A stretch of 9,933 bases of DNA from Nitrospirota bacterium (GTDB taxonomy: Bacteria; Nitrospirota; Nitrospiria; Nitrospirales; UBA8639). Position 1 is the first letter of the stretch. Every line of letters starts with the position of its first letter. The position numbers and the translations under genes were made by a program. The notes beneath the pieces are model-generated. The model was given only the letters and a program-made list of their open reading frames with translations. It was not told the DNA's origin and did not search any database. The DNA is taken from assembly GCA_020355985.1 (NCBI GenBank), contig CP070628.1, positions 1,255,996 to 1,265,928 of the forward strand, in the 5' to 3' direction. Shown one piece after another: positions 2,627 to 8,729 of this stretch.

Positions 2627-3613
2627 ATGTCAATTTCTGATCCATCGCCGATAATGGAAGACATTCCCTGGACTGAGGAAGCGTTGACTCGACTTGAGCG
2701 TGCCCCTAGTTTCTTGCGGGGTATGGTTCGTCGGTTGGCTGATAAAAAAGCCAAAGAACTTGGCTATGCTGAGATCACGGTTGATGTTTTGGAACAATTC
2801 AAAAACCAAATGATGGGTCAAATGGGTGGTGAAGCGGGGATGTCTCAGGCAGCCGAAGATATGGCTGCAGGCAAGTTGCCCTGGACCGCAGAAGCCAAAA
2901 AACGATTGGAGTCCATCCCGGAGTTCATGCGGAGCATGATTGCCAATATTGCGGAAGATGTGGCCAAAGAGCGAGGTCATATGGAGGTCAATGTCGAGTT
3001 ATTTGAAAAGGTTGAAGCCTTAGGCGATCTGCAAGAGCAAGTAGGCCTTCCCTTAGAATGGACAGAAGAAGCCCTCGCGCTCTTGCAACAAAAAATAGAG
3101 CATTCCCCCCCAATGGCGAAGGAATTTGTGGCAGATATGTTGAAGCATGATGCAGAAGATCTTGCGCGGGAGCAAGGAATTACCTGCATGGATGCTGAAT
3201 CCCTCATGCGTCTATGGGAGGCACCACAATCACAGGTAGCTTGGACTGATGAGGCATGGAAACGTCTTCAGACCTCTCCGGATTTTGTGCGGAGTGGGAT
3301 CCGAAAAGCTGCTGAGCGTCGGGCACGGAAACTTGGTCTTCAAGAAATTGATTCAGAGCATTTGACCGTTTTTCGAAACGAAGCCATGATGAAAGCTGTC
3401 AAACGCATTCGAGCCTTTGGATATAAAGAATTGACGTTTGATGCCTTCGATGATGCGCTCCATAAGGTAAAACGATTAAAGGGAAACGAGCAAGCTGAGC
3501 ACCGTTTAGATGAAATACGTGATTTTATGAAAACCAAGCCCGATGTGGGAGTACTTGGCGACGAGCTCATGGGGCGCTTCCGGAGGTATTTAAAAGGGGA
3601 AGGAAAATTATAA
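2627..3613 (+). CDS. Protein of four tandem PCP_red-like repeats, function unknown
   Basis: The 328-residue protein is built from repeated units starting at residues 15, 86, 145 and 206. Each begins WT.EA...L and the best copies continue P.F.R....+.AE..A+..G..E+. This pattern matches my memory of the small C-terminal domain of the light-independent protochlorophyllide reductase subunit BchB/ChlB (Pfam PCP_red), which occurs alone in some non-phototrophs. Repeats 1, 2 and 4 keep the pattern best; repeat 3 carries an insertion (IEHSPP). After repeat 4 a second AFGYKELTFDAFDDAL segment (about 263-278) looks like a partial fifth unit, followed by a charged tail. No cysteines of an Fe-S or catalytic domain and no BchB nitrogenase-like part are present, so chlorophyll synthesis is not implied. 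The ATG lies 3 bases after the IHF stop and has no clear Shine-Dalgarno of its own, which suggests translational coupling. A later ATG at 2654 is an alternative start. The role is unknown. Confidence 0.8.
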   Translation: MSISDPSPIMEDIPWTEEALTRLERAPSFLRGMVRRLADKKAKELGYAEITVDVLEQFKNQMMGQMGGEAGMSQAAEDMAAGKLPWTAEAKKRLESIPEFMRSMIANIAEDVAKERGHMEVNVELFEKVEALGDLQEQVGLPLEWTEEALALLQQKIEHSPPMAKEFVADMLKHDAEDLAREQGITCMDAESLMRLWEAPQSQVAWTDEAWKRLQTSPDFVRSGIRKAAERRARKLGLQEIDSEHLTVFRNEAMMKAVKRIRAFGYKELTFDAFDDALHKVKRLKGNEQAEHRLDEIRDFMKTKPDVGVLGDELMGRFRRYLKGEGKL

Positions 3614-3659: not shown

Positions 3660-4292
3660 CTAGTTCTTTCCCATTTTCTGTTCCATTGCCCCTTCCTTTG
3701 CTAATTGATCAACAATCTCATTTTCGGGGTTCCCCGAATGAGCTTTAACTTTGATCCAATGAATGTTGATGTGTGATGCGTTCACCATTTTGGCATATGA
3801 TTGGGTGAAGGGTAATTTCGCTCTCCAGGCTCCTGTTGCCCAGCTTTCCAACCCTTGATAATCAAAATAAAGCGTCACCTCTGTAATCCCCCGTGCCTGG
3901 CACCATTCCAGGGATTTTAAAATACCCAAAATCTCTCCCGCGACGTTTCGGTGCCTATGAGCTTCGGGAGGAATATCGTTGCCTTTGGCACGATAGACTT
4001 CTTGGCCACCCTGTTTGACCAGCAAGCCCCATCCAATTCTCAGAGAACCATCACCTTGAGGAAAACAGGATCCATCCACCCAAATCTCAGTAGTGAAATC
4101 AGTTGGGACGTCCGCTTTTTCCTTGGTATTTTTCAGAGTTGGGGCAGTGGAAGAGACAAACGCCAAGGCTTCTTCTCGTGTAGGGAAGGATTTATATTCA
4201 GCATCAGGAAATTTGTAGACTTGTTTTCGGCAGGCGTCCCAACTGTCAAACACTCCGGTGGTTCGGCCGCGACGTACCGCATAAAACTTCAT
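3660..4292 (-). CDS. Ribonuclease HI with N-terminal viroplasmin (RHBD) domain
   Basis: Cleaves the RNA strand of RNA/DNA hybrids in the cytoplasm (R-loops, primers). In the 210-residue product, residues 1-47 form a caulimovirus-viroplasmin or hybrid-binding domain (KFYAVRRGRTTGVFDSWDAC, then AEYKSFPTREEA), which in homologues raises affinity for the hybrid. A linker of about 20 residues leads to the RNase H fold at about 68-205. The four acidic catalytic residues can be read as Asp73 (WVDGS), Glu120 (NVAGEI), Asp144 (LYFDYQG) and Asp195 (NEIVDQLA), with His185 in KAHSGNPEN as the flexible-loop histidine. The start chosen is ATG at 4292; the frame extends two codons to a TTG at 4298. No good ribosome binding site is seen before either. 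It converges with the PCP_red gene (46 bases between stops) and follows the TPR gene on the same strand after 53 bases. Confidence 0.92.
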   Translation of the reverse strand: MKFYAVRRGRTTGVFDSWDACRKQVYKFPDAEYKSFPTREEALAFVSSTAPTLKNTKEKADVPTDFTTEIWVDGSCFPQGDGSLRIGWGLLVKQGGQEVYRAKGNDIPPEAHRHRNVAGEILGILKSLEWCQARGITEVTLYFDYQGLESWATGAWRAKLPFTQSYAKMVNASHINIHWIKVKAHSGNPENEIVDQLAKEGAMEQKMGKN

Positions 4293-4345
4293 GGACAATC
4301 ACATGCGGGTGTTGTTTGTCCCATGCTATTGTTTCTTCATCGGAT

Positions 4346-5596: not shown

Positions 5597-5671
5597 TGGT
5601 GGGCGATACTGGGATCGAACCAGTGACCTCTGCCGTGTGAAGGCAGCGCTCTCCCACTGAGCTAATCGCCC
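5597..5671 (-). tRNA. tRNA-Val (anticodon CAC), CCA encoded
   Basis: On the minus strand the acceptor stem GGGCGAT pairs with ATCGCCC, followed by discriminator A and an encoded CCA. The D arm is GCTC/GAGC with loop AGTGGGA. The anticodon stem CTGCC/GGCAG encloses TTCACAC, so the anticodon is CAC (plus-strand bases 5637-5639) and reads GUG valine. The T arm has the TTCGATC loop. The total of 75 bases and all arms are standard. Confidence 0.97.
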
Positions 5672-5713: not shown

Positions 5714-5744
5714 TGCAGTTTAATGGGCATGTCTTCCCCATATC

Positions 5745-5774
5745 TTGACGCTCTAAGAAAGTGTGGAGTAGGCT
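5745..5774 (+). promoter_or_regulatory. Weak candidate promoter of pup
   Basis: TTGACG (5745-5750) followed after 18 bases by TAGGCT (5769-5774). The -35 is good, the -10 matches only three of six bases. It lies back-to-back with the tRNA-Val promoter in the divergent gap 5672-5816. Confidence 0.3.
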
Positions 5775-5804
5775 CAGACGAAGGGATTTATGGTGCTTTG
5801 CAAA

Positions 5805-5810
5805 GGGGGG
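5805..5810 (+). promoter_or_regulatory. Ribosome binding site of pup
   Basis: A run of six G preceded by AAA lies 6 bases before the ATG at 5817. It supports that start over an in-frame ATG at 5790, which has only a weaker AAGGG motif and would add a cysteine-containing leader unlike known Pup N-termini. Confidence 0.6.
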
Positions 5811-5816
5811 TGTATA

Positions 5817-6020
5817 ATGGACAAACAAGACCGAAAATATGAGTCTCGAAAGCCAAGTACTCCTCAAGAATCTGAAGAGATCCAAGCCGATCCTAAGGTT
5901 GCGGAAACCGGGCAACGTTTAACAGAAGAAATGGACGATCTGGTTGACGAAATCGATAAAGTCCTTGAAGAAAATGCGGCTGAATTTGTGAAAAACTATG
6001 TGCAAAAAGGTGGAGAGTAG
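5817..6020 (+). CDS. pup: Prokaryotic ubiquitin-like protein Pup, ending in GGE
   Basis: Pup is joined through its C-terminal glutamate to lysines of target proteins by the ligase PafA and carries them to the Mpa/ARC ATPase and the 20S proteasome. The 67-residue product has a polar, disordered-looking N-terminal half (residues 1-32) and then the Pup signature: LTEEMDDLVDEIDKVLEENA (35-54), the region that forms a helix on the ATPase coiled coil, and EFVKNYVQKGGE at the end. From memory, about three quarters of residues 35-67 match Mycobacterium Pup. The last residue is Glu rather than Gln, so the protein should be ligatable without prior deamidation by Dop. The size (usual 60-70) fits. No proteasome subunit, pafA, dop or ATPase gene is in the window, unlike the actinobacterial pup-prcBA order. 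The other related tag known in Nitrospirota, UBact, has a different sequence, so Pup is the better name. Confidence 0.93.
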   Translation: MDKQDRKYESRKPSTPQESEEIQADPKVAETGQRLTEEMDDLVDEIDKVLEENAAEFVKNYVQKGGE

Positions 6021-6439
6021 CCACTAGATTTATTTGGTGCGCTCAGCTCCATGGGTACGTTCTTCCTTCCTGTTTTCGTCACAACCTATTCACAGCTCCT
6101 AGGTGGGCATTCCTGACATTTTTAATCGGGAATCCATCTTGTTTTTCTTTCTCAAGCAACGTTGGGAGGAGAAGCACGTCTTCTCTGTTGAGCCTAGGGT
6201 AATGTTCAAGTGGTTATTGGTATTGCCGGGTTTCGTCCAGGCGGCCGACTTTGTTGCTTGATGTGTCCAGAGGGAAGCAAACTTTATTGTGAAGCACAAG
6301 AACCTAAAACCATTCATGCCAAGCCTAACCTCATCTGATGAGGCGAACGCAAGTTACAGGAGGGCGGACCAACTTGCTGTGCTCAAACAAGGTCTGCCAG
6401 CTGATTAGAGCGTTCACCGTTGGGGCCGGGCGGAGGCGT

Positions 6440-6469
6440 CAGACAGTGGGACAAGAACGGATCTATAAT
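6440..6469 (+). promoter_or_regulatory. Candidate promoter of rel
   Basis: A perfect TATAAT (6464-6469) lies 18 bases after CAGACA (6440-6445), which matches four of six -35 bases. Transcription would begin near 6476, giving rel a leader of about 75 bases. A TATGAT at 6503-6508 is a second -10 candidate without a good -35. Confidence 0.4.
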
Positions 6470-6535
6470 AAAGAGTTTTCAGCAATTTCATCAGTTTTTT
6501 GTTATGATTTTTGAAGGTAGTTAGGGTAAGGGGCT

Positions 6536-6547
6536 ATGAGAATCTGA
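6536..6547 (+). other. Three-codon minicistron (Met-Arg-Ile-stop) just before rel
   Basis: ATG AGA ATC TGA sits directly after AAGGGG (6528-6533), while the rel ATG at 6552 comes 4 bases after this stop and lacks its own Shine-Dalgarno at normal distance. In the rel frame a TGA at 6537-6539 rules out an upstream start. Ribosomes may reach rel by reinitiation, or AAGGGG may be a distant site for rel itself. This is inference. Confidence 0.3.
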
Positions 6548-6551
6548 AATT

Positions 6552-8729
6552 ATGAGTGTTGCACATCTGGCAGATATTGAACAGCTGATGAAGCAGGTGG
6601 TGGCATACCATCCTGAGGCGGATACGAGTCTCCTTCTGCGTGCATATGAGTATTCGGTCAAAGCGCATGAAGGGCAAATGCGTCAAACGGGAGAGCCCTA
6701 TGTTCAGCATCCACTAGCCGTTGCTGGAATTTTAACATTTCTTAAGCTGGATGTGCCGGCCATCGCGGCTGGACTTCTTCATGACACACTTGAAGATACC
6801 GTCGCCACCGAAGAGGAGCTAAAAAAAGAGTTTGGGGCGGATGTGGCGCAATTGGTTGAAGGAGTGACGAAGATTGGGCAGATTCCGTTTAAATCTTACG
6901 AAGAGAAACAGGCAGAAAATTTTAGAAAAATGGTTCTATCTATGGCTGATGATATCCGAGTGGTCTTCATTAAGCTGGCCGACCGTCTACACAATATGCA
7001 GACCCTGGAGGGCTTGTCGGACGAGAAACGGAAAAAAATTTCTCAAGAAACAATGGAGATTTATGCTCCTCTAGCTAACCGGCTTGGTATAAGTTGGATT
7101 AAACAAGAATTAGAGGATTTATGTTTTCAATACCTTCAGCCAGAAGCTTGTGCCCTTTTAAAGCTGCGATTAGCGAAAAGGGATGATGAGCGGCAGGCTT
7201 ATATCCAAACCCTGATTCAGATGGCACAGGAGGCGCTGACCGAGGCCGGTCTTCCTGGACAAATTGACGGACGGCCGAAGCACCTTTTTAGCATTTACCA
7301 GAAAATGGAGCGTCGGTCGGTTTCGTTCGATGAAATTTATGACCTCACGGCCATTCGCATAGTGACCGATTCCAAAATGAATTGTTATGCCGTACTGGGT
7401 TTAATTCATTCGATTTGGCCCCCGGTTCCTGGTCGCGTGAAGGATTATGTGGCTACGCCTCGTTCCAATCTCTATCAATCCTTGCATACGACGGTCGTTG
7501 GACCTCAAGGAGAATATGTGGAGTTTCAAATTCGAACAGCAGAAATGCACCGCATCAATGAATATGGGGTTGCTGCCCATTGGTTGTATAAGGAACCTAT
7601 GAAAGCCAGAGGTGGTGATGGGGAAGTCTTTAGTTGGCTTCGGCAGTTTGTGGAATGGCACAAAGATCTTTCGGACAATCGACAGTTTATGGATTCCGTA
7701 AAATTGGATTTATTCCATGATGTCGTTTTCGTGTTCACACCAAAAGGTGAAGTGCGGGAGGTGCCGGTAGGGTCGACGCCCTTAGATCTTGCCTATGCCA
7801 TTCATACTGAAATTGGAGATCATTGTGTTGGTGCGAAAGTTAACGGCAAGCTGGTCCCCCTTCGGTACCAATTACATAGTGGAGATATGGTAGAGATATT
7901 GACCTCTCCTGCCCAAGTGCCTCATCGCGGGTGGTTAAAGTTTGTTCGTACCTCAAAAGCCAAAACAAAAATCAAACATTGGTTCAAAGTTGCAGAGCAA
8001 AAACGTGCGCTAGAACTTGGCCGCCGCTTATTAGAACAGGAATTTCAACGAAAACATCTTTCCGCCGAACAGTCTTTGAAATCGGAGCGATTGGTGGTCA
8101 TGGCCAAGGTGAAGGATTGTGAGACTGTGGACGAGTTAATCCGAATGGTGGGATTCGGGCGCATTGCCCCTGATCAAATCGTATCGCATTTCAAGGAAGA
8201 GAGCGAGCAATTACCTTCTATCGCCATCAAAGGTGAGGTGTCGGTTCCTCATTTGAACTCGCCGGGGCCATTAAATGACAGACCTGTTAAGTTTAGCGGG
8301 ACCAATGATGTCCTCATGCAGCTTTCCAAATGTTGCAAGCCCGTTCCTGGGGAACCTATTCGTGGCTATATTACGCGTGGGCGGGGGTTGACGATACATG
8401 CAGTCGATTGCCCAAACTTTCAGTCATTGGAATGGGAGCATAATCGCCTGGTAGAAGTGGAATGGGACGTAGATGTTGAAGGTTCCCATTCGGTTGATGT
8501 TTCGGTATTAACGCTTGATCGACCTGGAGTATTAGCCAAAGTTTCTTCCGGTATCTCTCAATGCAAGGCGAATATCACAAAAGCTGAAATTTCAACCAGA
8601 GAGGATCAGAAGGCAGTCTTGGATTTTGTGATCGAAGTGAAGAATACCTCGCACTTAGAGCTTATTCTTCAGGAAATTCAACGGGTTGAAGGTATTCTTA
8701 CAGCTAAGCGAGTGCGGGGATGGTCCTAG
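6552..8729 (+). CDS. rel: Bifunctional (p)ppGpp synthetase/hydrolase, Rel/SpoT family
   Basis: Makes (p)ppGpp from ATP and GDP/GTP on starved ribosomes and hydrolyses it otherwise, controlling the stringent response. The 725 residues, a usual length, show: the HD hydrolase with His53 (QHPLAV), His77-Asp78 and Glu81-Asp82 (HDTLED) and Asp144 (KLADRLHNM), all intact; the synthetase at about 240-350 with RPKHLFSIYQK, Asp264 (DLTAIRI), YQSLHTTV and Glu324 (EFQIRT); the TGS domain at about 390-450; a helical region; a Cys-rich zinc-finger segment with Cys594-Cys595, His616 and Cys620; and a C-terminal ACT domain at about 648-722. The synthetase motif RVKD (295-298) is the RxKD type of bifunctional Rel/SpoT rather than the ExDD of monofunctional RelA, so both activities are expected. 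No other start is open upstream because of an in-frame stop at 6537. No rpoZ or gmk gene is adjacent. Confidence 0.96.
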   Translation: MSVAHLADIEQLMKQVVAYHPEADTSLLLRAYEYSVKAHEGQMRQTGEPYVQHPLAVAGILTFLKLDVPAIAAGLLHDTLEDTVATEEELKKEFGADVAQLVEGVTKIGQIPFKSYEEKQAENFRKMVLSMADDIRVVFIKLADRLHNMQTLEGLSDEKRKKISQETMEIYAPLANRLGISWIKQELEDLCFQYLQPEACALLKLRLAKRDDERQAYIQTLIQMAQEALTEAGLPGQIDGRPKHLFSIYQKMERRSVSFDEIYDLTAIRIVTDSKMNCYAVLGLIHSIWPPVPGRVKDYVATPRSNLYQSLHTTVVGPQGEYVEFQIRTAEMHRINEYGVAAHWLYKEPMKARGGDGEVFSWLRQFVEWHKDLSDNRQFMDSVKLDLFHDVVFVFTPKGEVREVPVGSTPLDLAYAIHTEIGDHCVGAKVNGKLVPLRYQLHSGDMVEILTSPAQVPHRGWLKFVRTSKAKTKIKHWFKVAEQKRALELGRRLLEQEFQRKHLSAEQSLKSERLVVMAKVKDCETVDELIRMVGFGRIAPDQIVSHFKEESEQLPSIAIKGEVSVPHLNSPGPLNDRPVKFSGTNDVLMQLSKCCKPVPGEPIRGYITRGRGLTIHAVDCPNFQSLEWEHNRLVEVEWDVDVEGSHSVDVSVLTLDRPGVLAKVSSGISQCKANITKAEISTREDQKAVLDFVIEVKNTSHLELILQEIQRVEGILTAKRVRGWS

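Follow-up and report, generated by a model that had tools for sequence, protein, structure and literature searches.

A relocated pup gene in Nitrospirota: the tag gene of a probable Pup-proteasome system stands upstream of recJ-rel, apart from the ligase and proteasome genes

Introduction

Pup is a small protein tag, and proteins that carry it are led to destruction. Gene order has served both to define Pup systems and to find them. The available part of one paper places pup "invariably" beside a PafA gene (PMC2588565), and the accessible portion of another calls the Pup gene order "rigidly conserved" (PMC3511204); the same portion reports two systems in Leptospirillum ferrooxidans, the second with a tag that lacks GGE. 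The available text of PMC7947786 proposes that the ancestor of Nitrospirae received the system by transfer from Actinobacteria.

In the present work, we analyzed a stretch of 9,933 nucleotides from a Nitrospirota bacterium (hereafter the window), in which a pup gene is found away from any such cluster. The available parts of PMC6466877, PMC8223512, PMC11354881, and PMC12342949 do not describe a relocated pup, and no report of one was found in the open-access literature, a scope outside which most subscription papers lie.

Results

The pup gene of the window and its neighborhood

The features of the window that bear on the pup gene are as follows:

5597..5671, minus strand: tRNA-Val(cac), the divergent neighbor of pup in the clade of the window (ARAGORN, Rfam; same place in relatives)
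5744..5774, plus strand: promoter-like block CTTGACG-N15-GAGTA-GGCT (TTGACG, 18 bases, TAGGCT), conserved 5' of relocated pup genes
5802..5810, plus strand: ribosome-binding-like stretch AAAGGGGGG, 5' of the ATG at 5817 (read from the sequence; a G-rich stretch is kept in relatives)
5817..6020, plus strand: pup, 67 amino acids (Pfam PF05639, TIGR03687, PDB Pup chains, pN/pS)
6021..6551, plus strand: gap between pup and rel, filled by recJ in most of the other lineages with a relocated pup; the window gave no match to recJ
6552..8729, plus strand: rel (RelA/SpoT family; Pfam HD_4, RelA_SpoT, TGS, and ACT), the constant 3' neighbor of relocated pup

The open reading frame at 5817-6020 encodes a protein ending in VQKGGE, which is matched by Pfam PF05639 (Pup) at 76.8 bits (cut-off 27) and by NCBIfam TIGR03687 at 63.7 bits (cut-off 41.45), and which aligns to the PDB Pup chains 3m91 and 3m9d with the C-terminal GGE included. 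A search for homologs found 194, and PF05639 was present in all 120 that were listed. Comparison with 16 relatives gave pN/pS values of 0.08-0.34, as expected of a coding sequence under selection rather than of a chance reading frame; the pup of the window is thus a genuine gene under purifying selection, and a chance open reading frame is ruled out by these values together with the Pfam and NCBIfam matches. A longer frame starting at 5790 was set aside, since the ATG at 5817 is preceded by AAAGGGGGG and the same start is found in relatives. We likewise rejected UBact as the identity of the protein, because the UBact model NF033388 gave no match to it even at E values up to 1. The terminal GGE of the window protein is one of the two endings, GGE or GGQ, that mark a Pup C-terminus: among 139 Pup loci (one genome can give several), counted with a pattern that required GE or GQ, GGE was read at 123 and GGQ at 16. 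Two Pup sequences were odd, that of G050 (L185), which has an insertion and reads NNVQKGGE instead of NYVQKGGE, and that of G117 (L188), with an apparent internal duplication.

A Pfam scan of eight further genes of the window found no ligase, proteasome subunit, or proteasomal ATPase among them, and an Rfam search of the gap at 6021-6551 for an RNA element gave no match. A preliminary description, made from the window alone, had claimed a full Pup signature in a gene lying between tRNA-Val and rel, outside the pup-prcBA order and with no proteasome or ligase gene nearby, and all of this is borne out by the above results. Two further genes of the window deserve mention. One, at 2627-3613 on the plus strand, encodes a 328-residue protein composed of four copies of PCP_red, the domain of the protochlorophyllide reductase 57 kD subunit; the group to which its host belongs is not known to be photosynthetic. 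The other, at 3660-4298 on the minus strand, encodes an RNase H that carries a Cauli_VI (ribonuclease H1 N-terminal) domain at its N-terminus.

Position of pup across the order and the class

The rel gene of the window, used as a query, retrieved 63 loci, 27 of which (L001-L025, L028, and L049) are labeled Nitrospirota, Nitrospirae, Nitrospirales, or alike, and one Nitrospinota. At 23 of these 27, pup precedes rel in the same orientation, and at the other four the contig starts within 583 bases of rel. The search was widened to the order of genome G011, inferred to be Nitrospirales, and to its class; Pup matches were found in 139 of 146 genomes of the order and in 228 of 246 of the class. Eighty pup loci from 79 genomes were then read, 40 from each set, their selection being by score and contig size and hence non-random. 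At 63 of them (the decayed copy of G038 included, see below), recJ and/or rel lie 3' of pup and no cluster genes occur in the stretch read, while the remaining 17, from sister lineages, keep pup in its textbook place, flanked by dop and prcB, some of them truncated by contig ends; both arrangements together were seen at none of the 80. Neither the window nor any of the 63 relocated loci thus has pup beside PafA or Dop. This missing adjacency counts against a standard locus and not against a Pup system, as it concerns layout only. Genome G085, with pup beside an incomplete ligase-proteasome cluster, was dropped because its sequence contains runs of N and broken genes. Two Pup matches were found in only three of the 246 genomes of the class (G210, G213, and G230), and in G210, the only one of these to be read, both copies stand in the same relocated context.

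The commonest order among the relocated loci is hppA-pup-recJ-rel, in which the labels recJ (RecJ_OB, DHH) and hppA (H_PPase) were confirmed by Pfam. The window and its nearest relatives show TPR-tRNA-Val-pup-rel, with the slot before rel devoid of recJ, and an intermediate group has both tRNA-Val and recJ. Judging from these orders, the arrangement seen in the window, with tRNA-Val and rel flanking a lone pup, is a simplification that came later. In L002 (5475-10000), about 4.5 kb of extra DNA separates pup from rel, and in L005 (5888-9594), about 3.7 kb separates tRNA-Val from pup.

Ligase and proteasome genes in relatives

Whole-genome searches for the machinery covered 26 relatives, i.e. 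the genomes behind 26 of the 27 loci. Each of the 26 has exactly one Pup match, and all gave matches to the Pup_ligase family, to the Proteasome model, and to pup_AAA (ARC family), the last above its cut-off in 22. Taken alone, two of these models are unspecific: in 14 control genomes, the Proteasome model matched 10, and pup_AAA matched all 14 weakly, above cut-off in one. In G006, the genes form a cluster, arc-dop-prcB-prcA-pafA (cluster A), with no pup inside and with every protein above its NCBIfam cut-off, PafA narrowly so (552.4 versus 551.3). PafA, Dop, ARC/Mpa, and PrcBA are therefore found within one genome in relatives of the window organism, where the proteasome genes share a cluster with the ligase. 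Across the order, Pup_ligase was matched in all 146 genomes, in 145 above cut-off. Judged from these relatives, the pup of the window is probably not a functional orphan, its machinery lying elsewhere in the genome.

Evidence for a single ancient move

A tree of Rel was built with 63 relocated rows (the window included), 16 in-cluster rows, and seven outgroup rows. It requires one change between the in-cluster and the relocated state, and the SH-aLRT value for the relocated rows is 92 with the long-branched G038 and 100 without it, values that come from a quick method with long-branch warnings (G038 among them) and from a gene, rel, that itself neighbors the trait. Separately, the distance from the dop stop codon to the prcB match is 25-92 bases at 36 of 37 loci of the relocated type, which come from 22 genomes, two or three loci from some of them; at all 17 loci of the in-cluster type, it is 211-382 bases. 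The one exception, L097, has 547 bases; prcB is matched there in two frames, and no pup match is present. In eight of the 15 in-cluster genomes read, recJ is the immediate 5' neighbor of rel, and neither pup nor hppA was matched at this site; in the other seven, recJ was not found upstream of rel. Given that the two genes adjoin in those eight, the recJ-rel pair may predate the insertion of pup. Where pup and the dop of cluster A share a contig, they are separated by 41 kb to 1.42 Mb (at least 41 genomes), with 30 of 41 distances at 40-75 kb when circularity is ignored, which suggests that pup moved over some 45 kb and that rearrangements followed. Most simply, then, pup would have left the dop-prcB slot and settled 5' of recJ-rel once.

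Loss of the system

The long-branched genome G038 (L189 and L274) falls at the base of the relocated clade. Its pup occupies the relocated position but is decayed, with a product that ends in GRG. Its ligase trace is below cut-off and contains five stops, and searches found neither a PrcA nor a UBact match. The machinery being gone or broken, the tag appears to have decayed too, and on this evidence G038 is a natural case of loss of the Pup system. No Pup match was found in seven of the 146 genomes of the order, six of which carry a cluster-A proteasome subunit; missing contigs may explain these six. The seventh, G144, has a UBact cluster alone.

These results alter the preliminary description in part. 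Its proposal of a separate proteasome locus elsewhere agrees with the relatives, all 26 of which carry machinery away from pup, and for the same reason its term "orphan" is misleading. A second Pup copy, which it had also considered, finds no counterpart in those 26 genomes, with one pup each, nor in the two copies of G210, both of them relocated, and Pup, which it had called rare outside Actinobacteria, is not rare within this class. Its third option, pupylation without degradation, sits badly with proteasome genes in the cluster of the ligase and with a pup that decayed in G038.

A second tag system in the same genomes

UBact was matched in 105 of the 146 genomes of the order (104 above cut-off) and in 19 of the 26 relatives. 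Counted by tag, 102 of the 146 have both, 37 Pup only, three UBact only, and four neither. In G006, a second cluster reads arc2-dop2-UBact-prcB2-prcA2-pafA2; its UBact protein scores 76.5 against a cut-off of 35, the other members tested fall below the Pup-system cut-offs, and UBact and the OB domains of the ATPase are also matched by Pfam. Complete UBact clusters were observed beside Pup in the same genomes at L137 (G006), L139 (G020), and L141 (G018). The UBact set found in most relatives forms a system apart from that of Pup and has a tag of its own.

A conserved block upstream of relocated pup

Relocated pup genes are preceded by a block, CTTGACG-N14/16-GAGTAnnnT, located 66-105 bases 5' of the start codon; in the window, the distance is 72 bases, counting from the second base of the block. 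Of 93 distinct regions upstream of relocated pup genes, 66 contain the strict form, which was not seen in the other 27, in any of 16 in-cluster regions, or in any of 27,947 random 150-mers from the same loci. A loose form, TTGAC-N16/19-TAnnnT, was found in 92 of 93, none of 16, and 264 of 27,947, respectively. These counts are not independent because the upstream sequences share a common ancestry. Searches of 16 whole genomes with the strict pattern gave 20 matches, 14 of them upstream of pup (one each in 14 genomes) and six elsewhere, and the reversed pattern gave nine. The block is thus nearly private to pup in these 16 genomes. Three of the six other matches precede one same protein in three genomes, so that not all six are due to chance. 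This protein is a similar open reading frame of 109 residues in L276 (G049), L277 (G086), and L278 (G110). Since the block is kept with either upstream neighbor, hppA or tRNA-Val, it appears to belong to pup, and we infer, as its natural reading, that it is the pup promoter. A standard scan of the window for promoters and terminators listed a single promoter and a single terminator, numbers not above those of shuffled sequences, and the conserved block was not listed.

Discussion

We consider it about 85% probable that the window protein is the tag of a Pup-proteasome system in which the tag gene became separated from the machinery, most simply once, is transcribed alone, and has its product ligated in trans. 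The genes arc-dop-prcB-prcA-pafA would have stayed together elsewhere while pup moved upstream of recJ-rel, where its own conserved promoter would drive it alone. By the known behavior of the family, the PafA of cluster A would attach the GGE-ending Pup in trans to its substrates, the Dop of that cluster would remove it, and the ARC ATPase would thread the tagged substrate into the PrcBA proteasome. The supply of the tag would then be set independently of the supply of enzymes and protease. We are more hesitant about the purpose of such a layout. That throughout the group a dedicated, strongly conserved, near-private promoter makes Pup dosage an independent control on degradation, possibly insulating it from the co-resident UBact system, is a tentative idea that we judge somewhat doubtful, and a role of the separation in dosage control is offered as a suggestion, not as a result.

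The placement might instead be a neutral accident: pup would have moved by chance and would work as in Actinobacteria, with a promoter that merely expresses the gene. To our minds the chances of this are even. The machinery is intact in relatives, and the genes around pup vary by lineage, both upstream (hppA or TPR/tRNA-Val) and in between (recJ kept or lost), all of which would fit an accident; against it, the relocation has been kept at all 63 relocated loci read and the block is conserved across differing upstream neighbors, although on either count the place itself could still be neutral. We regard it as very improbable that Pup serves a UBact-type ligase and proteasome instead of, or besides, cluster A. 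The coexistence of both tags in most genomes of the order makes such cross-use possible, but Pup also occurs without a UBact match in the 37 genomes mentioned above, and in the four of these that were checked (G021, G022, G024, and G026) the ligase-family genes are those of cluster A only; moreover, the UBact cluster has a tag gene of its own, placed between dop2 and prcB2, and the UBact model does not match the window protein. Hardly credible, finally, is a true orphan, i.e. a host that has lost the machinery and a pup that is decaying or otherwise used. Such losses do occur, as G038 illustrates, and the 9.9-kb window is itself free of machinery genes; however, the pup of the window is intact, ends in GGE, and is under purifying selection, the machinery was found in every relative searched, and the G038 copy is itself decayed.

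If the tag gene is separated from its machinery as proposed, the group, which includes nitrite oxidizers, offers a natural example of a tag that can be controlled separately from its machinery, mostly alongside a second tag-proteasome system, and in which both the value of a separate tag supply and the insulation of Pup from UBact become testable. Since a whole group within Nitrospirota breaks the adjacency rule, searches based on the locus would miss or misread the tag.

Among known systems, the closest is the actinobacterial Pup-proteasome system (arc/mpa-dop-pup-prcB-prcA-pafA), which uses the same tag family and whose five other genes occur in the relatives studied here in the same order; it differs in that here pup stands outside the cluster, 5' of recJ-rel and behind its own promoter-like block. 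The UBact system (NF033388, Pfam UBact) is alike in its small tag, its ligase/Dop homologs, its ARC-like ATPase, and its two proteasome-like subunits, but its tag ends in TGE and is encoded within its own cluster. The double Pup of L. ferrooxidans, as given in the available part of PMC3511204, is similar in that one genome holds two systems; there, both copies have the same genetic context, with pup in the cluster, whereas here pup has left it. The second tag of that species may be UBact, given that it has no terminal GGE. By its gene order, this group of Nitrospirota is a lineage-wide exception to the rule that pup adjoins PafA and, as far as sequence comparison can tell, a new variant of the Pup-proteasome system.
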